In this document: in pieces, positions 2-51,189 of the stretch
Position numbering within the stretch: the stretch's first letter is position 1
Layout of the letters: each line of letters begins with the position of its first letter
Source: Flavobacteriales bacterium 33_180_T64
Lineage (GTDB): Bacteria; Bacteroidota; Bacteroidia; Flavobacteriales; Flavobacteriaceae
DNA: 64,000 nucleotides
Direction of reading: 5' to 3'
Assembly (NCBI GenBank): GCA_002162685.1
Contig: MAAQ01000013.1
Span: 62,001 to 126,000 of the forward strand
Made by a program: the position numbers and the translations under genes
The notes under the pieces: generated by a model
Databases searched by the model: none
Seen by the model: the letters and a program-made list of their open reading frames with translations, nothing else
Told to the model about the DNA's origin: nothing

Positions 2-2566
2 AATACTATTGGGCTTCCATTTAATTCTGGGTCTATTATCGCTGGATTACTTGTCGTTGCTGCGTTTTATTTCGGATTAAAATATACCAGAAAAAAAGGT
101 TATAAATACGCTAATACATTAACGCTTTGCTTGATTTTTATTTTTATCGGGTTTTCATCTTGGGTAATGCTACCTATTAGAGCTAATGCTAATGTGATTA
201 TTAATGAAAATAATCCATCTAGTGCAAGAGAACTTTTAGCCTACTATAACTTAGAGCAATATCCTGAAACACATTTATTTTATGGACCTTTATTTACTGA
301 TCAATATTCTGGTCTAGATGAGAACAATCCATACAAAGATGCAAAACCTAAGTATGAAAAAGACAAAGAAAATGGTGAGTACATTGTTGTAAATGAATGG
401 AAAAATGCCGAGCAAATGTACAATTCTAAACATGCTGCAATGCTACCAAGAATGTGGAGTGGAGAGCATGCCGAAAACTACATGATGTTTACAGGTTTAT
501 TAGATTTTAAAATTAAGCCGGAATACCAAATGGATAATGATGTTCGCCGTGTAGTGAACCAATTCAAGAATGAAGTCGCTCAAGGAAAAGTCGATTATGA
601 AGATTATCATGGTTTTTTAAAACAATTTGGAAACGGCTACTTAGAAGTTGAGAAACCTTCTTTTGGAGACAATTTATATTATATGATTGACTATCAATTT
701 GGTTATATGTACTGGAGGTATTTTATGTGGAATTTCTCTGGTAGACAAGATGATATTCAAGGTAAATATGACGATTTACATGGAAACTGGTTAAGCGGAA
801 TCGATTTTATTGATGAGTTACATTTAGGAATGTCTCAAGACAACCTACCAAGTGATGTAGCAAATAATAAAGCAAGAAACACGTATTACATGCTTCCATT
901 AATATTAGGTATTATTGGATTCTTATTTATCCTTTCAAGAGATCCTAAGCGTTTTTGGGTGCTGTTCGTGTTCTTTTTAATGACAGGATTAGCCATTCAA
1001 TTCTATACTAACGTAAGACCTTTTGAACCTCGAGAAAGAGATTACTCGGTTGTAGGTTCTTTTTATGTATTTGCAATTTGGATTGGTTTTGGAGTGTATG
1101 CTATTTTTGATTTCCTTAAAAAATATGCCAACTCTAAATTTCTTGCTCCTGCTATTACATTAGTTTGTTTAGTTTTAGTTCCTGGAATTTTAGCAGCCGA
1201 AAACTGGGATGATCATGATAGATCTGCTAAATACACAGCACAAGCTATGGCAAGGCAGTATTTAGAATCTTGTGCACCAAACGCTATACTATTCACTATT
1301 GGTGATAATGATAGTTTCCCTTTATGGTACTTGCAAGAAATTGAAGGTGTACGAACAGATGTTCGTGTAGTAAACACTAGCTTGTTTCAAACGGATTGGT
1401 ATATCGATCAAATGAAACGTAAAGCCTATGAAAGTGACCCTATCCCGTCTCAATTAACTCATGAGCAATACAGGTTCGGCACTAGAGATTATATAATGAA
1501 AAATGAAATTACCAAAGACACTTTCTTAATTAAAGATTTTGTAGATTTCATTTCTAATGATGATCCAAAGTACAAATTAGCTTATGCTTTAAGAGCTACT
1601 GGTGAAGATCCATCTGTATACCCGAAACAATTACAAAATTCAAATTATTTGCCAACGAGTAATGTTAGAGTTCCAGTAAACAAAGCTAATGTTCTTGAAA
1701 ATGGTCTTGTAAAAGCAAAAGACACTGATAAAATTGAACCTTACCTAGATATTAAAATTACTGGTGGTGCATTATATAAAAATCGTCTATTAATGTTAGA
1801 CATTATTGCTAATAATGATTGGAAACGACCAATTTACTTCACTGGCGGAGCCTTTAGTGATGAAGATTATATATGGATGAAAGATTATCTACAATTAGAT
1901 GGTTTATGTTACAAATTAGTACCAATCAAAACACCTGTAGACAGAGCAAATCCTTTTGATATGGGACGTGTAGATCCCGATTTGATGTATGAAAAGGTAA
2001 TGTCTTGGGATTGGGGAAATAGCGGAAGCGACAAAATTTATCACGATGTCGAAACACGTAAAAACGGAATTACTTATAGAGGAAACCTTGCTAGGCTTAT
2101 GGAGCGGCTTCTTAACGAAGGTGAATATGATAAGGCCGAGAAAATTGCTGACCTAGCCATGGAGAAAATGCCTGTAGATAAATTTGGATTTTACACACTT
2201 CTAGAGCCCTATATTAGTGGTTATTATGAAATGGATAAAAAGGAAAAAGCTAGAAAACTCTATACTGATGTTACTAGAAAATATCAAGAGAAATTAACAT
2301 ATTGGAGCGAACTTTCTAGAGAAAACCAAACACGCTATATTGATGAAATTGTAACAGATATTGAATGGTACAGAAACTTAGTAGATATTTTAGTCATCTA
2401 TAATGACAAAGCTTTTGCCATGGATGAAACCGAAAAGTTTAATAATTACTTAAAACTCTTCAAACATTTTACTGATGAAGGTGAAGCAGATGCAAAACCA
2501 CCAGTTAGAGAGGAAAGAGATATTCCAACAGATACCATTGATAAAATTTTAGGCATTCAACACTAA
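2..2566 (+). CDS. DUF2723 family membrane protein (protein O-mannosyltransferase-like), 5'-truncated by the window edge
   Basis: The reading frame is open from base 2, so the gene begins upstream of the window; 854 residues are visible. An in-frame TTG at 131 is internal, because the frame before it encodes a hydrophobic segment (GSIIAGLLVVAAFYFG) typical of a membrane protein. Family knowledge: DUF2723 proteins of Bacteroidota are about 1,000-1,150 residues, with an N-terminal multi-pass region resembling protein O-mannosyltransferases and a soluble C-terminal part. Visible here are two early membrane segments, a second group of four (about residues 295-400), a conserved GDNDSFPLWYLQE segment, and a helical C-terminal tail. 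A role in protein or lipid glycosylation at the inner membrane is inferred from the family. The next gene, a polysaccharide deacetylase, follows after 6 nt and probably shares the transcript. Confidence 0.85.
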   Translation, partial: NTIGLPFNSGSIIAGLLVVAAFYFGLKYTRKKGYKYANTLTLCLIFIFIGFSSWVMLPIRANANVIINENNPSSARELLAYYNLEQYPETHLFYGPLFTDQYSGLDENNPYKDAKPKYEKDKENGEYIVVNEWKNAEQMYNSKHAAMLPRMWSGEHAENYMMFTGLLDFKIKPEYQMDNDVRRVVNQFKNEVAQGKVDYEDYHGFLKQFGNGYLEVEKPSFGDNLYYMIDYQFGYMYWRYFMWNFSGRQDDIQGKYDDLHGNWLSGIDFIDELHLGMSQDNLPSDVANNKARNTYYMLPLILGIIGFLFILSRDPKRFWVLFVFFLMTGLAIQFYTNVRPFEPRERDYSVVGSFYVFAIWIGFGVYAIFDFLKKYANSKFLAPAITLVCLVLVPGILAAENWDDHDRSAKYTAQAMARQYLESCAPNAILFTIGDNDSFPLWYLQEIEGVRTDVRVVNTSLFQTDWYIDQMKRKAYESDPIPSQLTHEQYRFGTRDYIMKNEITKDTFLIKDFVDFISNDDPKYKLAYALRATGEDPSVYPKQLQNSNYLPTSNVRVPVNKANVLENGLVKAKDTDKIEPYLDIKITGGALYKNRLLMLDIIANNDWKRPIYFTGGAFSDEDYIWMKDYLQLDGLCYKLVPIKTPVDRANPFDMGRVDPDLMYEKVMSWDWGNSGSDKIYHDVETRKNGITYRGNLARLMERLLNEGEYDKAEKIADLAMEKMPVDKFGFYTLLEPYISGYYEMDKKEKARKLYTDVTRKYQEKLTYWSELSRENQTRYIDEIVTDIEWYRNLVDILVIYNDKAFAMDETEKFNNYLKLFKHFTDEGEADAKPPVREERDIPTDTIDKILGIQH

Positions 2567-2572
2567 TATATT

Positions 2573-3217
2573 TTGAAAATTGCTCCTGTAAAAACACCAA
2601 TAGTTGCTAAAAAGATGTTCCCAAATTATGTTTGGGACATCGCAACTTCAAAGAAGGAGTTGTATTTAACTTTTGATGATGGTCCTACTCCAGAAATCAC
2701 AAATTGGGTATTAGAAACACTCAAGCAATTTAATGCAAAAGCAACATTTTTTTGCATAGGATCTAATATAGAAAAGCATCCCGAAATTTTTCAAAATATA
2801 TTAAACAGCGGTCATGCTATTGGTAATCACACACAACATCATGTTAAAGGTTGGAAAACAAAGACCAAAGCTTACTTAAAAGAAGTTGACATAGCACAAT
2901 CTGTTATTAATTTAGAGCCTAAAAATCAAGACTATCTCTTTCGTCCGCCTTACGGGCAAATAAAACCTAAACAAGGAAAAAAACTAATAGAACTTGGTTA
3001 TAAAATAATTATGTGGGATGTTCTATCTTTTGATTGGGAACAGGAAATTTCCGAAGAAAAGTGTTTAGATAATGTCATTTCAAAAAGCAAAAAAGGAAGT
3101 ATTATCGTTTTTCACGATAGCATAAAAGCATCAAAAAACTTGACATTTGTGCTTCCAAAAGTATTAGAAATATTTAGTAAAAAAGGCTATAAGTTTAAAG
3201 CATTAGAACTACTCTAG
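2573..3217 (+). CDS. Polysaccharide deacetylase (NodB domain, carbohydrate esterase 4)
   Basis: A 214-residue protein made almost entirely of a NodB homology domain. Family motifs are visible: TFDDGPTPE (motif 1, catalytic Asp and metal Asp), HAIGNHTQHH (motif 2, metal-binding His pair), RPPYGQ (motif 3), and FHDS near the C terminus. It should remove N-acetyl or O-acetyl groups from a polysaccharide or peptidoglycan; the substrate cannot be read from sequence. No signal peptide is evident. The chosen start is TTG at 2573, 6 nt after the preceding stop, because the N-terminal stretch before the first internal ATG (residue 15) looks like ordinary coding sequence leading into FPNYVWD. The ATG start is possible but would shorten the N terminus. 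The 3' end overlaps the convergent thioredoxin-like gene by 4 bp. Confidence 0.9.
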   Translation: MKIAPVKTPIVAKKMFPNYVWDIATSKKELYLTFDDGPTPEITNWVLETLKQFNAKATFFCIGSNIEKHPEIFQNILNSGHAIGNHTQHHVKGWKTKTKAYLKEVDIAQSVINLEPKNQDYLFRPPYGQIKPKQGKKLIELGYKIIMWDVLSFDWEQEISEEKCLDNVISKSKKGSIIVFHDSIKASKNLTFVLPKVLEIFSKKGYKFKALELL

Positions 3218-3510
3218 ATATACTCCTGTACAATCCCTATTAGCGTATTCGCGTCCTGTTCTCCACTATGCCTCCATTTCATCTCACCATTTTTATAAAT
3301 AATAAGTGTAGGCAAACCTTTAACACGTAAGGCTTCGGCTAACTCCTTGTTTTTATCAACATCTATTTTGATGACCCTAGCTTTGTCACCAAGAGCAGCA
3401 GCAACATCTCTCATTACTGGATGCATTGCTGTAGATTGCTCATTCCATTCAGTATAAAAATCTAACAGAACAGGAATATCAACGTCTATAAGTTCCCCAA
3501 ATTTTGACAT
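3214..3510 (-). CDS. Thioredoxin-fold protein lacking the CXXC active site
   Basis: A 98-residue single-domain protein with a recognisable thioredoxin fold: strand VLLDFYTEW, the segment VIKIDVDKN, and the cis-proline loop GLPTLIIYKNGE (Pro67). At the position of the usual WCGPC the sequence reads WNEQS (residues 22-26), so both redox cysteines are replaced (Asn23, Ser26) and the protein contains no cysteine at all. It cannot be a classical thiol-disulfide oxidoreductase. A chaperone, scaffold or protein-binding role is inferred. No signal peptide is seen, so it is probably cytoplasmic. A TAnnTTTG element lies at 3543-3550. It overlaps the stop of the convergent deacetylase gene by 4 bp. Confidence 0.88.
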   Translation of the reverse strand: MSKFGELIDVDIPVLLDFYTEWNEQSTAMHPVMRDVAAALGDKARVIKIDVDKNKELAEALRVKGLPTLIIYKNGEMKWRHSGEQDANTLIGIVQEYI

Positions 3511-3542
3511 ACGTTTAATCTTTTAAATCAGATATGTTACTA

Positions 3543-3550
3543 CAAACCTA
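3543..3550 (-). promoter_or_regulatory. Candidate -7 promoter element for the thioredoxin-fold gene
   Basis: Read on the minus strand this is TAGGTTTG, an exact match to the Bacteroidota -7 consensus TAnnTTTG, about 32 nt before the ATG at 3510. No convincing -33 TTG at 17-23 nt is visible. Confidence 0.4.
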
Positions 3551-3574
3551 CATAATTTTTTTCGTAATACTTTA

Positions 3575-3599
3575 AATGAACCAATTTAGTAGGTTCATT
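3575..3599 (-). terminator. Hairpin downstream of the metallophosphoesterase gene
   Basis: AATGAACC and GGTTCATT form a perfect 8-bp stem with a 9-nt loop in the gap between two minus-strand genes. The following T tract on the minus strand is short (TTTAAAG), so this is at best a weak intrinsic terminator. Confidence 0.35.
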
Positions 3600-46031: not shown

Positions 46032-46114
46032 TATCAGCAAACTTTGTTTGCTTATTAAAACGCACTAGCAAATTTACTGAAGCAAGCTTCGATAAATTTG
46101 CTAGTGCGTTTTAA
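46032..46114. repeat. 64-bp direct repeat, copy 2, with a 21-bp inverted repeat
   Basis: Copy 2 of the 64-bp repeat (46032-46095). Its part 46055-46075 pairs perfectly over 21 bp with 46094-46114, around an 18-nt loop. Copy 1 lacks the right arm. The hairpin ends 8 bp from the tRNA-Ser 3' end, and on the minus strand its T-rich side could stop the tRNA transcript. Confidence 0.9.
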
Positions 46115-46122
46115 TGTATTCG

Positions 46123-46210
46123 CAGAGAGGAAGGGATTCGAACCCTCGATACCCTTTTGGAGTATACACACTTTCCAGGCGTGCGCCTTCGACCACTCGG
46201 CCACCTCTCT
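46123..46210 (-). tRNA. tRNA-Ser (anticodon GGA)
   Basis: An 88-nt class II tRNA on the minus strand. The acceptor stem AGAGAGG pairs with CCTCTCT, the D-arm has GCCGAGTGGTCGAAGGC, the anticodon loop reads CTGGAAA (GGA at 46176-46174), a long variable arm follows as in serine tRNAs, and the T-arm contains GGTTCGAATCC. The discriminator is G and CCA is not encoded. Confidence 0.96.
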
Positions 46211-47311: not shown

Positions 47312-48079
47312 TTATATTCCAAATATTTCTTTAGAGTTTTCGGTAGTAATTTCGGCAATTTTTTCTTCGGAAACCGAATATATTTCTGCTAATTTTTCTA
47401 ACACCTTAATTATATAAGCACTTTCATTACGTTTTCCTCTATATGGTTTTGGTGCTAGATATGGAGAATCGGTTTCTAAAACAATATGTTTTAAATCAAT
47501 AGCTTTTAAAAACTGATCTATCTTTCCGTTTTTAAATGTAGCTACGCCTCCAATTCCTAATTTCATATTATAGGAAATGGCTTGATGTGCTTGTTCTATA
47601 GTTCCTGTAAAACAATGAAAAATTCCAAAGAGCTTATCATCTTTAACCATCTCTAAAATTTCAAAAATTTCGTCAAAGGCATCTCTACAATGAATCACAA
47701 TTGGTAAGTCATACTGTTTTGCTAACTGTATTTGATACTTAAATGCCTCCTTTTGAATCTCAAGTGTTGACGTATCCCAATATAAATCAATTCCAATTTC
47801 ACCAATAGCATAAAAATGATGTTTACTAAGCATTTCTTCTACATGCAGTAATTCTTTTTTGTAATTTTCTTTTACAGAAGTAGGATGTAATCCCATCATT
47901 AAAAATATGTGCTCTGGAAAATCTGCTTCTAATCTTAACATTGCATCTGTATACGTTGAATCTATTGCTGGAATAAAAAACCTAGAGACGTTTTGAGAAA
48001 TTGCTCTCTCAATCATTGCTTTTCGATCATCATCAAAAGCTTCACTATATAAATGCGTATGTGTATCTGTAATCATCAT
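47312..48079 (-). CDS. tatD: TatD family metal-dependent hydrolase (DNase)
   Basis: A 255-residue TIM-barrel hydrolase. Motifs: TDTHTHLYSEAFDDD (first metal His pair), IGEIGIDLYWD (metal Glu), IVIHCRDAFDE, FHCFTGT, and LETDSPYLAPKPYRGKRNE. The family has 3'-5' deoxyribonuclease activity and appears in DNA repair and turnover. Start ATG at 48079 or the second ATG at 48076. A TAnnTTTG box lies 4 nt upstream. ansA follows after one base. Confidence 0.94.
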   Translation of the reverse strand: MMITDTHTHLYSEAFDDDRKAMIERAISQNVSRFFIPAIDSTYTDAMLRLEADFPEHIFLMMGLHPTSVKENYKKELLHVEEMLSKHHFYAIGEIGIDLYWDTSTLEIQKEAFKYQIQLAKQYDLPIVIHCRDAFDEIFEILEMVKDDKLFGIFHCFTGTIEQAHQAISYNMKLGIGGVATFKNGKIDQFLKAIDLKHIVLETDSPYLAPKPYRGKRNESAYIIKVLEKLAEIYSVSEEKIAEITTENSKEIFGI

Positions 48080-48083
48080 TGTG

Positions 48084-48091
48084 CAAAAATA
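48084..48091 (-). promoter_or_regulatory. Candidate -7 promoter element for tatD-ansA
   Basis: The minus strand reads TATTTTTG, exact TAnnTTTG, 4 nt before the first and 7 nt before the second tatD ATG. It lies 15 bp from the divergent box at 48107-48114. Confidence 0.45.
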
Positions 48092-48106
48092 ATCGTTTTA
48101 TAGAAT

Positions 48107-48114
48107 TATATTTG
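48107..48114 (+). promoter_or_regulatory. Candidate -7 promoter element for the retropepsin-like gene
   Basis: TATATTTG matches TAnnTTTG, 19 nt before the ATG at 48134. It faces away from the tatD box in a 54-bp divergent spacer, so the two promoters overlap. Confidence 0.5.
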
Positions 48115-48133
48115 CAGAAAACAAATAAGAGTT

Positions 48134-48574
48134 ATGGAAACTTTAAAAGAGTTTTTGATTAATAAAGGTTATACAAAAGTGAAACTCAAATTAACGAAGA
48201 CTAATCATTTTGAAATTATAGCAACTATTAATGGTGTAAAAGGTCTTTTTATTTTAGATACTGGAGCATCAAGTTCGTGTGTGGGTTTTGAAGCGATTGA
48301 GACATTTAATCTCACAGCAAAAGATTCTAAGGTTAAAGCTGCTGGTGCTGGTGCTACCGATATGGCGACTCAGTTATCTAAAAAAAACACCTTAAATATT
48401 GGAAAATGGAAAAAAGACAAAGTCGCACTAGTTTTATTTAATCTTACTCATGTAAATACGGCTTTAAAAAATCATAATGCTCAACCTGTTGATGGCATTA
48501 TTGGTGCTGATATTCTTAAAAAATCAAAAGCAATTATTGATTATGAAATGAAATACTTATATTTAAAATTGTAG
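48134..48574 (+). CDS. Retropepsin-like aspartic protease domain protein
   Basis: A 146-residue single-domain protein. FILDTGASSSCVG carries the catalytic Asp42-Thr-Gly, followed by GIIGADIL, a family segment. No signal peptide or membrane segment is visible, so it is probably cytoplasmic. Such single-domain retropepsins would need to dimerise to be active. Substrate unknown. It is divergent from tatD and stands upstream of the response regulator gene with a 66-nt gap. Confidence 0.85.
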   Translation: METLKEFLINKGYTKVKLKLTKTNHFEIIATINGVKGLFILDTGASSSCVGFEAIETFNLTAKDSKVKAAGAGATDMATQLSKKNTLNIGKWKKDKVALVLFNLTHVNTALKNHNAQPVDGIIGADILKKSKAIIDYEMKYLYLKL

Positions 48575-48640
48575 AAAATTATATCTACATTTACAAAATC
48601 TTATTATATTTAGATATAAATCCCTCAGATTAATAGCAAA

Positions 48641-49276
48641 ATGTCTACGTCAATAATAATAGCCGATGATCACCCACTCATTCTTAAAGGCCTCAACGAC
48701 TTTCTTTTAGAAAAACAATTTAATGTTATTGCCAGTGCAAAAAATGGCAAAGAAGCCTTTACTCTAATAAATGCTCATCAGCCAGATATCGCGATTTTAG
48801 ATATCCAAATGCCTATTCTCACAGGCTTACAAGTTGCTGAAAAATGTAAAAATGAAGGTTTAAGTACTAAAATTATTATTATCACTTTTGAAAAAAGTGA
48901 AGAGATTTATAATAAAGCAAAGTCTTTAGGTATTTATGGATATATTCTCAAAGAATTTGCTATTGCTGAGATTGAGAACTGTATCGCTTCTGTGCTGAAG
49001 GAGAAATCTTATTTTAGCCCAGAATTAATAGAATATCTAGAAATAAGAGAAACACCAAAAGCATTAAAAAACTTGACAGATTCTGAAATGAAAGTCTTTA
49101 AACTTTTGGCTGAAAATAAAACAGCTAAAGAGATTGCAGTTGTATTATTCATTTCTAATCGTACAGTAGAAAAACATAAAAGCAATATTAGAACAAAGCT
49201 AAAATTAGAATCAAAAGCAAATACCATTGTTCTTTATGCTAAAAAATACCAGGATTTTTTATCTGAATATACGTAG
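48641..49276 (+). CDS. NarL/LuxR-family response regulator, orphan
   Basis: A 211-residue regulator. The receiver domain has the acidic pair Asp9-Asp10, phosphoacceptor Asp54 (ILDIQMP), Thr82 and Lys104. The C-terminal LuxR-type helix-turn-helix follows LTDSEMKVFKLLAENKTAKEI and NRTVEKHKSNI (about residues 144-190). There is no histidine kinase gene in the window next to it. Its stop codon lies inside the first of three identical palindromes that precede small terminator-ended units, so I infer it controls them. Confidence 0.93.
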   Translation: MSTSIIIADDHPLILKGLNDFLLEKQFNVIASAKNGKEAFTLINAHQPDIAILDIQMPILTGLQVAEKCKNEGLSTKIIIITFEKSEEIYNKAKSLGIYGYILKEFAIAEIENCIASVLKEKSYFSPELIEYLEIRETPKALKNLTDSEMKVFKLLAENKTAKEIAVVLFISNRTVEKHKSNIRTKLKLESKANTIVLYAKKYQDFLSEYT

Positions 49277-49288
49277 AACTACGTATTG
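49267..49288 (+). promoter_or_regulatory. Palindromic operator-like element, copy 1
   Basis: The 22-bp element contains the perfect palindrome ATACGTAGAACTACGTAT (49269-49286) and overlaps the stop codon of the response regulator gene. It is identical to copies at 49403 and 49593. A weak -7-like box AATCTTTG begins 40 nt after the core start (49309-49316). Its centre is about 44 nt before the expected transcript start, a usual place for an activator site. Confidence 0.8.
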
Positions 49289-49320
49289 ACTTTATAGAAT
49301 CAAATGCTAATCTTTGCTCT

Positions 49321-49390
49321 GCTATTAATTCTTATTGGGAGGATTACATTAACTGAAACTCTGAATCGTTGTGGATTCAGGGTTTTTTTT
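49321..49390 (+). ncRNA. Candidate small RNA 1, about 70 nt
   Basis: From the predicted start near 49321 (GCTATTAATT) to a strong terminator, AAACTCTGAATC/GATTCAGGGTTT with 12 bp including one G-U (49356-49390), followed by eight T. There is no ATG-led reading frame. The first nine bases are the same as those of candidate 2. Transcription has not been shown. Confidence 0.55.
49356..49390 (+). terminator. Intrinsic terminator of unit 1
   Basis: A 12-bp stem with a 6-nt loop (GTTGTG) and a run of eight T. It may also end transcripts of the response regulator gene. Confidence 0.85.
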
Positions 49391-49402
49391 GTTAAAACTA
49401 AA

Positions 49403-49424
49403 ATATACGTAGAACTACGTATTG
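49403..49424 (+). promoter_or_regulatory. Palindromic operator-like element, copy 2
   Basis: Identical 22-bp element; core 49405-49422. The -7-like box GAAGTTTG is at 49445-49452, again exactly 40 nt after the core start. Lies just after the terminator of unit 1. Confidence 0.8.
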
Positions 49425-49456
49425 ATTCGTATTAATTTATTGACGAAGTTTGCATT

Positions 49457-49525
49457 GCTATTAATCAATTTCCTTTTTTACGAAAGGATTAAAGCTCTAA
49501 ATCTTTATGGTTTAGAGCTTTTTTT
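49457..49525 (+). ncRNA. Candidate small RNA 2, about 69 nt
   Basis: From about 49457 (GCTATTAATC) to the terminator at 49491-49525. It has a first hairpin TCCTTT-TTTACG-AAAGGA (49471-49488) and the terminator hairpin. No ATG-led reading frame. Its first part matches candidate 1, the rest differs, which suggests related RNAs with different targets, if they are regulators. Confidence 0.55.
49491..49525 (+). terminator. Intrinsic terminator of unit 2
   Basis: AAAGCTCTAAA and TTTAGAGCTTT form an 11-bp perfect stem, then seven T. Confidence 0.88.
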
Positions 49526-49592
49526 ATATTCAAATTCAAAATAACACTCAATAAACCCTTCAACAGTAAAATTTTAACATTTAAAAAGTGAA

Positions 49593-49614
49593 ATATACGT
49601 AGAACTACGTATTG
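49593..49614 (+). promoter_or_regulatory. Palindromic operator-like element, copy 3
   Basis: Identical 22-bp element; core 49595-49612. The -7-like position is GAATTTTA (49635-49642), the same 40-nt offset as in copies 1 and 2, with the flanking ACGAA shared with copy 2. Confidence 0.8.
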
Positions 49615-49646
49615 TTTGGTGTTAGTATAATAACGAATTTTACACC

Positions 49647-49743
49647 AGAGTTATTAGAATTAGAGGGATTTTTTTATAGTAACTCTATTAATTAATTAGG
49701 GTATATAAGGCTCTGGGTCTCTTCATAAACTCAGGGCTTTATT
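49647..49743 (+). ncRNA. Candidate small RNA 3 or leader of the small membrane peptide gene
   Basis: From about 49647, with AGAGTTA...TAACTCT pairing and then a 12-bp hairpin with G-U pairs (49707-49740) followed by only a short T run. This terminator looks leaky, so the transcript could either stop as a small RNA or continue into the 36-residue peptide gene at 49774. Confidence 0.45.
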
Positions 49744-49773
49744 GAAAACGAAGCATTAAAACACATAAAAAAA

Positions 49774-49884
49774 ATGGAAACAATGAAAAACAAACAAAGC
49801 CTCACTAATAAGATATTTATTTTAGGCTTGATTTTTAGTGCCATTTTAATTATATCAATAAATATTCTTGTAAATTTTTTTTAG
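49774..49884 (+). CDS. 36-residue single-pass membrane peptide
   Basis: A short frame starting METMKNKQSLTNKIFILG and continuing as one hydrophobic helix (ILGLIFSAILIISINIL) to a TAG stop. A basic, polar start followed by a helix fits an inner-membrane micropeptide with its N terminus in the cytoplasm. An alternative start is the second ATG at 49783. It follows the third operator unit and precedes a terminator, so it has a complete transcription-unit context. No family recognised. Confidence 0.55.
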   Translation: METMKNKQSLTNKIFILGLIFSAILIISINILVNFF

Positions 49885-49914
49885 TTATTAGTTAGTTATT
49901 TTTTATTAGGTAGA

Positions 49915-49947
49915 AAAAGCGCAATCCATACTTTGAATTGCGCTTTT
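49915..49947. terminator. Bidirectional terminator
   Basis: AAAAGCGCAAT and ATTGCGCTTTT form an 11-bp stem between the convergent small peptide gene and odhB. The T tract is better on the minus strand. Confidence 0.85.
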
Positions 49948-49974
49948 CTGTATACTAGACTTATGTGAAACTGT

Positions 49975-51189
49975 CTACATTTCTAGCGCCTTTTTCACAT
50001 CATTATTCATTAATAATTCTGTTGGGTTTTCTAATGCTTCCTTTACAGCTACAAGAAAACCAACACTTTCTTTACCATCAATAATTCTATGGTCATAAGA
50101 TAAAGCGACATACATAATTGGTCTAATCACGACTTCTCCATTAATAGCAACTGGACGCTCAACAATATTATGCATTCCTAAAATTCCACTTTGTGGTGGA
50201 TTAATAATAGGCGTTGATAACATACTTCCAAAAACACCACCATTTGAAATGGTAAATGTCCCTCCTGTCATTTCATCGACAGTAATTTGACCATCACGAG
50301 CTCTAATTGCTAAACGTTTTACTTCGGCTTCAACACCTCTAAAACTTAAATTTTCAGCATTTCTAATAACAGGTACCATTAAGCCTTTAGGTCCAGACAC
50401 TGCAATAGATACATCTACAAAATCATAGCTTAACATTTCTTTTCCATCAATCATAGAATTAACCGCTGGATACATCTTTAATGCACGAACAACTGCTAAT
50501 GTAAAGAAGCTCATAAACCCAAGACCTACACCATGCTTTACTTTAAAGTCTTCTTTGTATTGTTTACGTAATTCAAAAATTGGAGACATATCAACTTCGT
50601 TAAACGTTGTTAACATAGCCGTCGTATTTTTGGCTTCTACCAAACGTTCTGCAACTTTGCGACGCAACATTGACATTTTACTATGTGATGATCCACGGCT
50701 TCCACCTGTAGGTGTTCCCATAGAGGGCATTGCTTTAACAGCATCTTCTTTTGTTATACGACCATCCTTTCCTGTTCCCGAAATTGATGACGCATCCATT
50801 CCCTTTTCATCTAATATCTTCTTAGCTGCAGGGCTTGCTGTACCAGTAGCATATGTTTTGTTTTCTACAACTGATTTTAGAGCTTCCTTTTTAGGTGTTT
50901 CTTCTTTTTTCTCCTCTTTTACTGGAGCAGAAGACTCCCCTTCAGGCTTTGCAGCACTTGTATCAATTAAACAAACAATCGCTCCTACTTCAACAGCATC
51001 ACCTTCTTCTGCCTTTAGCGTAATTATTCCACTAGCTTCAGCGGGTAACTCTAAGGTAGCCTTATCACTATCTACTTCTGCAATAGCTTGGTCTTTTTCA
51101 ACATAATCTCCATCGGCAACTAACCATTCTGCAATTTCTACTTCTGTGATTGATTCTCCTGGTGAAGGAACTTTCATTTCTAAAATCAT
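49975..51189 (-). CDS. odhB: 2-oxoglutarate dehydrogenase E2, dihydrolipoyllysine succinyltransferase
   Basis: A 404-residue E2 of the 2-oxoglutarate dehydrogenase complex. It has an N-terminal lipoyl domain ([17 protein letters not shown], with the lipoylated Lys in DKAT), a Lys/Glu-rich linker, an E3/E1-binding region ([17 protein letters not shown]), and the catalytic domain ending in [12 protein letters not shown], with the catalytic His and Asp. It transfers succinyl groups to CoA in the TCA cycle. Lies 84 nt after odhA. Confidence 0.95.

Follow-up and report, generated by a model that had tools for sequence, protein, structure and literature searches.

The window analysed here, a stretch of 64,000 nucleotides (nt) from contig MAAQ01000013.1 of Flavobacteriales bacterium 33_180_T64 (GCA_002162685.1, positions 62,001 to 126,000; genome size 3.75 Mb), carries the gene of a NarL/FixJ-type response regulator (RR) followed by three tandem units, each headed by a copy of the same palindrome and a promoter-like stretch (Table 1). 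Two of these units are predicted to encode small RNAs (sRNAs), while the third leads into a small open reading frame (ORF). A preliminary description, made from the letters alone, had proposed that the RR activates three small RNAs through these palindromes. Judged by sequence comparison, this is a genuine and conserved array that is linked to the RR. Apart from its receiver and helix-turn-helix (HTH) domains, the RR shows an additional match to sigma70 region 4 that falls below the Pfam cut-off. Its phospho-site residues (D9, D10, D54, T82, and K104) are unchanged in all 42 aligned homologues and, therefore, the RR should be phosphorylatable. The protein thus combines, by its sequence, an intact phospho-acceptor site with a GerE HTH, as defines the NarL/FixJ type. 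The earlier statement that no partner kinase lies nearby can be upheld as far as the family search reached, namely for the RR and four ORFs around it (TatD, asparaginase, aspartyl protease, and the small ORF of unit 3).

Table 1. Features of the regulator gene and the adjoining array (positions within the window).
Feature	Position	Strand	Basis
-7-like box of the RR gene, TATATTTA, predicted start ~48617	48605..48612	+	sequence; position from the -12 to -5 rule (PMC9723704, accessible part)
sRNA-complementary element of the RR mRNA leader: AATCCCTC 48619-48626, ATTAATAGC 48629-48637	48619..48637	+	just 5' of ATG 48641
NarL/FixJ-type RR, receiver and LuxR/GerE HTH, proposed activator	48641..49276	+	Pfam PF00072 E 1e-25, PF00196 E 6e-15
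Palindrome 1, proposed RR site, contains RR TAG stop	49269..49286	.	sequence
Promoter 1: TTG 49286-49288, -7-like box AATCTTTG 49309-49316	49286..49316	+	sequence
RNA 1 (predicted): 5' end GCUAUUAAU, hairpin with GGG loop, terminator	49321..49390	+	fold z -4.8; 19-sequence alignment
Palindrome 2	49405..49422	.	sequence
Promoter 2: TTG 49422-49424, -7-like box GAAGTTTG 49445-49452	49422..49452	+	sequence
RNA 2 (predicted): 5' end GCUAUUAAUCAAUU, small hairpin, terminator	49457..49525	+	fold z; alignment
Palindrome 3	49595..49612	.	sequence
Promoter 3: TTG 49612-49614, -7-like box GAATTTTA 49635-49642	49612..49642	+	sequence
Unit 3 leader: hairpin 49647-49686 enclosing AGAGGGAUU, then CUAUUAAU, terminator-like hairpin to ~49743 without U-run	49647..49773	+	sequence, fold
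Small ORF, 36 amino acids, one apparent membrane segment (METMKNKQSLTNKIFILGLIFSAILIISINILVNFF)	49774..49884	+	motif conservation, codon-position differences

The three palindromes are exact copies of ATACGTAGAACTACGTAT, a pattern for which only 0.03 chance matches would be expected in the window with up to three mismatches. Every palindrome merges into a TTG that is followed by 20 nt and a -7-like box, giving promoters that are TTG-N20-nnnnTTTR-like, and one offset holds for all three boxes; both the fixed offset of the boxes and the overlap of the first palindrome with the end of the RR gene had been described correctly. The -7 box spans positions -12 to -5 according to the accessible part of PMC9723704, and by this rule transcription is predicted to start at 49321, 49457, and 49647, the same positions as proposed before. 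The palindromes would thus be centred at about -43.5 (near -41 in the preliminary description), and this activator-like position is supported by the comparison of loci presented below.

Predicted RNAs 1 and 2 have a length of about 70 nt, end in U-runs and, in agreement with the first account, contain no ORF of note. Compared with shuffled sequences, all three units fold stably (z = -4.8, -5.4, and -3.7 for units 1, 2, and 3, respectively). The alignment of RNA 1 revealed two-sided changes at 12 of the 21 predicted pairs, together with a short hairpin that exposes the GGG loop. In RNA 2, the first 14 nt are invariant in all 22 aligned sequences and the loop is variable, while 5 of the 13 pairs in its terminator have changed on both sides. 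A search of positions 48000-51000 against Rfam returned four matches up to an E-value of 5, none of them above its own gathering score. A single GCTATTAATCAATTTTTTG was also observed about 100 nt past position 1516 of another locus (L009, G000:C6:44575-47590), behind a good -7 box (TAAATTTG) and with no palindrome where the usual offset would place one; this copy is possibly an RR-independent relative of RNA 2.

The expectation of a third small RNA was not borne out. Unit 3 has AGAGUUAUUAG at its 5' end and lacks the GCTATTAAT start, its final hairpin runs into TTTATTG instead of a U-run, and a conserved ORF lies downstream. A similar small ORF was recognized by motif at 31 of 42 loci, including all 22 Psychroserpens loci, and the differences among the 22 sequences of this genus (equal-length pairs) are distributed as 1142/298/2554 over the three codon positions. 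This is the pattern expected of coding sequence; the ORF has no Pfam match. Unit 3 therefore reads as a structured leader whose weak terminator precedes a conserved membrane-protein ORF rather than as an sRNA, which leaves two small structured RNAs, as predicted, of a type that recurs in other genera. The coding-like, conserved ORF and the plain leader character of unit 3 would also suit an array that acts only in cis, in which the units are short terminated leaders beside the RR, the membrane protein is the sole functional product and no RNA acts in trans. However, units 1 and 2 have U-run hairpins, compensatory changes and no ORF of note, and arrays of other genera reach six palindrome-bearing units, so that we consider a purely cis-acting array improbable.

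The distribution of RR and palindrome among genomes points to a link between the two. The close relatives of the host genome are named Psychroserpens, apart from one Arcticiflavibacter, and this genus was represented by 23 genomes within a total of 57 searched. An RR match was found in 25 of the 57, namely 22 of the 23 genus genomes plus G027, G030, and G031, and the exact palindrome in 23 (the 22 of the genus and G031). In G027 and G030 the RR is present and the palindrome takes a variant form. The exact palindrome is absent from all 32 genomes that lack an RR match, G022 of the same genus among them, and a reversed-pattern control gave no match in any of the 57. In the 22 RR-bearing genus genomes, two to four units lie 3' of the RR. 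Altogether 69 units were counted at 25 loci, and in all 63 of those selected for TTG a TTT stands at the common offset, followed by G in 39 and by A in 24. Such a fixed geometry, the species-specific palindromes and their absence from genomes without the RR largely refute the idea that the palindrome is a dispersed repeat of the repetitive extragenic palindromic or miniature inverted-repeat transposable element type that came by chance to lie in three tandem spacers; the further copies in the genome, some of them in integron-like or duplicated regions, would fit such a repeat, to which we assign next to no probability.

One genome of the genus, G014 (locus L035), looks like a case of domain replacement with a matching change of palindrome. 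Its RR is 91% identical to that of the window in the receiver and only 48% in the HTH, which in turn shares 64% identity with the HTH of G027. All three palindromes of its array read TACGTAAAGTTACGTA, the A..T form resembling that of G027, and TACGTAANNTTACGTA occurs in only one of the 23 genus genomes, G014, solely at the three array sites. This makes G014 the best natural experiment on the relation between the RR and its palindrome, and co-occurrence together with the parallel change in the DNA-binding domain and in the palindrome supports, at the level of sequence, that the two are linked. The host genome also encodes a NarL-type paralogue (the second match, at 42% identity), and it could be asked whether this or another LuxR-type paralogue binds the palindrome, with the adjacent RR as a bystander. 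We regard this as very improbable given that palindrome presence follows the RR, that the HTH and the palindrome change jointly in G014 and that the RR adjoins the array at the loci examined.

A search with a covariance model of unit 2 (R1) extended the array beyond the genus. Matches at E<=0.01 were obtained in 99 of 249 genomes of the family; these E-values are rough and many of the matches are weak, while several are tandem. For inspection, 19 matched loci were retrieved because they were tandem or scored highest; 17 of them, each from a different genus outside Psychroserpens, carry an RR homologue (46-70% identity) and an array. Of the remaining two, one lies at the end of a contig and has a single palindrome-bearing unit, and the other has neither RR nor palindrome. 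In the 17 loci, the palindrome is present in 40 of 43 CTATTAAT units and ends exactly at -36 in 38 of them, and TTTA occurs at the offset of the genus in 34 of the 40 palindrome units.

Palindromes were also found outside the array. The host genome contains eight exact copies, five of them outside the array, versus none in the exact-match control, and 18 versus 7 when two mismatches are allowed. The finding that had been named as damaging to the proposal, namely a palindrome at many unrelated loci without downstream terminators, was thus partly made, in so far as five of eight host sites lie elsewhere. In 12 genomes examined, 13 of 38 non-array palindromes show the promoter geometry of the array (promoter-matrix fit at p<=0.005 per orientation, with the better of two orientations taken) and the other 25 are not convincing. 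A search of the 23 genomes for palindrome plus TTG retrieved 77 sites, of which 19 lie outside the array. Genes 3' of non-array sites encode Septu-like PtuA/PtuB, SIR2-TPR, TIR, DUF4231, HATPase, metallo-beta-lactamase-fold, and DUF4474 proteins, while others encode large proteins that appear lipoprotein-like by eye, with a DUF6705 gene next in the one case tested. PADLOC matches at E<1e-10 were obtained for four of the genes behind 13 of the 19 sites (Septu, SIR2, TIR, and the metallo-beta-lactamase-fold protein) and for none of 10 control genes from the window, which gave two weaker matches, one of them to ZorA at 5e-7. An enrichment of defence genes behind palindrome promoters is therefore suggestive only, and palindrome sites without TTG (caspase, WYL, OLD-like AAA, LRR-Roc-TIR, and haem peroxidase) are weaker still as evidence for defence. 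In a viral collection, palindrome plus TTG occurs in five contigs, in none of which TTT stands at the -7 offset.

Three of the loci with non-array palindromes have features of their own. At L093 (G000:C11:128000-134000, positions 2342-3595), three palindromes lie beside repeats of about 50 nt with inverted symmetry, which we take to resemble integron attC sites; some copies would accordingly reside in a cassette-like region. L084 (G002:C1:3458683-3467282) has several similar palindrome-bearing promoter stretches 5' of partly duplicated DNA, near a run of 168-nt repeats. At L204 (G016:C8:109500-114500), the lipoprotein-like gene behind the palindrome promoter is apparently split in two frames, while its relative at L205 is unsplit. 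Elsewhere in the window, a minus-strand ORF call at 46055-46204 (MAEWSKAHAWKVC...) has the look of a tRNA gene read as protein.

A probable target of the sRNAs is the mRNA leader of the RR itself, as suggested by base complementarity. The 5' end GCUAUUAAU and the AGGGA motif of the sRNAs are mirrored in this leader by AATCCCTC and ATTAATAGC, just 5' of the ATG. Among RR leaders, TCCCT occurs in 31 of 42, TAATAGC in 23 and both in 18, as compared to 7, 4, and 3, respectively, of 611 control leaders from the same set of loci; this control leans against the pairing reading, because all four TAATAGC controls come from loci fetched for such a motif. Compared with shuffled sequences, 16 of 42 RR leaders reached p<=0.05 by longest match and 14 by energy, where about two would be expected, and unit 1 cofolds with the RR leader at -36.3 kcal/mol versus -24.1 kcal/mol for the two apart.

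The conserved motifs of the RNAs would also fit a protein sponge, i.e., RNAs that titrate an RNA-binding protein through AGGGA/AGGAU, as Rsm/Csr RNAs do with CsrA, the pairing with mRNA being incidental. GGA-type motifs are present in all three RNAs, the unit 1 loop (U)AGGG is strongly conserved, and the NarL-type RR, its upstream palindrome and the several short RNAs give the array a likeness to GacA-RsmXYZ. On the other hand, conservation within unit 2 is highest in the 5' seed and not in GGA, many RR leaders carry counterparts of both motifs, and CsrA was found in none of 21 genus genomes by a search that was positive in 3 of the 14 control genomes, including E. coli, and that covered CsrA among RNA-binding proteins. 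The strict form of the model, with CsrA as the titrated protein, was rejected on account of this search, and a sponge for some RNA-binding protein appears unlikely.

Targets beyond the RR were sought with the same motifs. In the host genome, few seed matches lie at real gene starts, hence no convincing target list beyond the RR emerged, and a genome-wide list based on the seed was dropped, being convincing in this genome for the RR alone. The bipartite motif CCCT..TTAATAGC..ATG gave 56 matches across the genus (control 7), 10 of which are the RR; 53 of the 56 were accounted for, 50 by inspection of their loci and three more as the RR. In three species (L324, L325, and L326), a gene of about 128 amino acids that is DUF7793-like (Pfam below cut-off) has AUCCCUC..AUUAAUAG and then ATG; these leaders, with AUCCCUC plus AUUAAUAGC near the ATG, closely resemble that of the RR, which makes the gene a candidate second target. 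The motif also stands at other real gene starts of single genes, e.g., one that is HU-like by eye. L099 and the 109-amino-acid gene of L340 are weak target leads.

Taken together, we propose a feedback circuit in which the phosphorylatable RR would bind the TACGTAG-NN-CTACGTA palindrome at about -43.5 and, from this class II position, activate the promoters just 3' of its own gene. Two products would be sRNAs of about 70 nt with intrinsic terminators, and the third a leader RNA with a leaky terminator followed by the ORF of the small membrane protein. The sRNAs would pair, through their 5' seed GCUAUUAAU and AGGGA, with short mRNA leaders that carry AUCCCU(C) and AUUAAUAGC beside the start codon. 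Their main target would be the leader of the RR, whose translation would be blocked, closing a negative feedback loop, and the same RR probably also drives accessory genes that have a palindrome promoter, defence-like ones among them. We assign a probability of roughly 0.72 to this explanation as a whole. The RR-palindrome-RNA array, the conservation of the RNAs and the small ORF appear well supported by comparative evidence. Activation rather than repression, pairing in vivo, the direction of the effect and the signal are inferred.

Several observations count against the circuit. The -7 boxes are poor matches to TAnnTTTG, which is compatible with activation and no proof of it, and two loci, L039 and L040, conform poorly to the unit pattern. 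In other genera, TTG stands beside the palindrome in only 11 of 40 units (TTT in 28), and the palindrome is uniform in only 9 of 15 multi-unit arrays. G014 retains one exact site of the usual form (TACGTAGNNCTACGTA). As for pairing, p by longest match exceeds 0.05 for 26 of 42 RR leaders, and the leader of the window itself reaches 0.055 by longest match and 0.040 by energy, ranking second and not first of 48 leaders in the window by duplex energy. ATTAATAGC is missing from 26 of 42 RR leaders, TAATAGC from 19, and TCCCT from 11, and since the loci are related such counts are not independent. Seed matches in the host genome exceed the control for ATTAATAGC-ATG (46 versus 13) and hardly do so for AATCCCTC-ATG (21 versus 18), with few at real gene starts, and the bipartite motif matches twice in G022, a genome without the RR.

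In a broader and more speculative version, which we hold to be possible although doubtful, a module found throughout the Flavobacteriaceae would consist of the NarL-type RR, a tandem array of feedback sRNAs independent of Hfq and CsrA, and a small membrane protein that possibly tunes the sensor, and its regulon would take up genes of defence or antagonism (Septu, SIR2, TIR, LRR-Roc-TIR, and lipoprotein-DUF6705 clusters) species by species through the palindrome promoter. If true, the module would serve accessory immunity as a shared "alarm" line. An RR, a DNA site and an sRNA array that can be traced across the family, together with the change of site specificity that one species has undergone naturally, offer a system for studying sRNA action without Hfq or CsrA, and the palindrome promoter would make the regulon, including candidate defence genes, predictable from sequence.

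To our knowledge, an activator is known for only a few of the trans-acting sRNAs of Bacteroidota, and those sRNA circuits that have been studied best depend on Hfq or CsrA. Our literature search, with subscription papers and preprints outside its scope, found no title or abstract on this array. In Vibrio, the Qrr sRNAs feed back on luxO, depend on the sigma54-dependent LuxO and act with Hfq. The likeness lies in a response regulator that drives several homologous sRNAs with feedback, as the RR would do here: site architecture and co-variation support the drive, and the enriched complementarity of RR leaders suggests the feedback. Feedback between LuxR and Qrr has also been described (PMC2680268, accessible part). 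LuxO, however, an AAA+ protein acting on sigma54 promoters, is an NtrC homologue (PMC11407668, accessible part), whereas the regulator described here has a receiver and a GerE domain and faces TTG-N20-nnnnTTTR-like promoters. Moreover, our sRNA genes form a tandem row next to the regulator, and a search of one genome, that of the host, gave no Hfq with a model (PF17209) that detected it in 5 of 14 control genomes. GacA, which is of the NarL/FixJ type, and the Rsm RNAs, which carry GGA-type motifs, share with our array the class of regulator, a palindrome 5' of each sRNA and several short RNAs with such motifs; unlike in that system, CsrA was not found in the 21 genus genomes searched, the site overlaps the -35 region and the array adjoins the regulator gene. 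Among Bacteroidota, GibS of Bacteroides represses by pairing near the start codon (PMC7366714, accessible part), and GibS and FopS of Bacteroides thetaiotaomicron resemble our RNAs as sRNAs without obvious Hfq that pair close to the start codon, FopS also as a multicopy family. They differ, compared by description, in that the regulator of FopS is called unknown and no linked response regulator or palindrome is mentioned in the accessible parts of PMC7366714 and PMC11697453. Rfp18 and the other Rfp sRNAs of Flavobacterium psychrophilum likewise come from a member of the Flavobacteriaceae, were obtained by transcript mapping, and have, compared by description, no linked regulator in the accessible part of PMC9723704. 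In sum, the array lacks defining features of both the Vibrio and the Pseudomonas regulator-sRNA circuits, and it would resemble both in its working.
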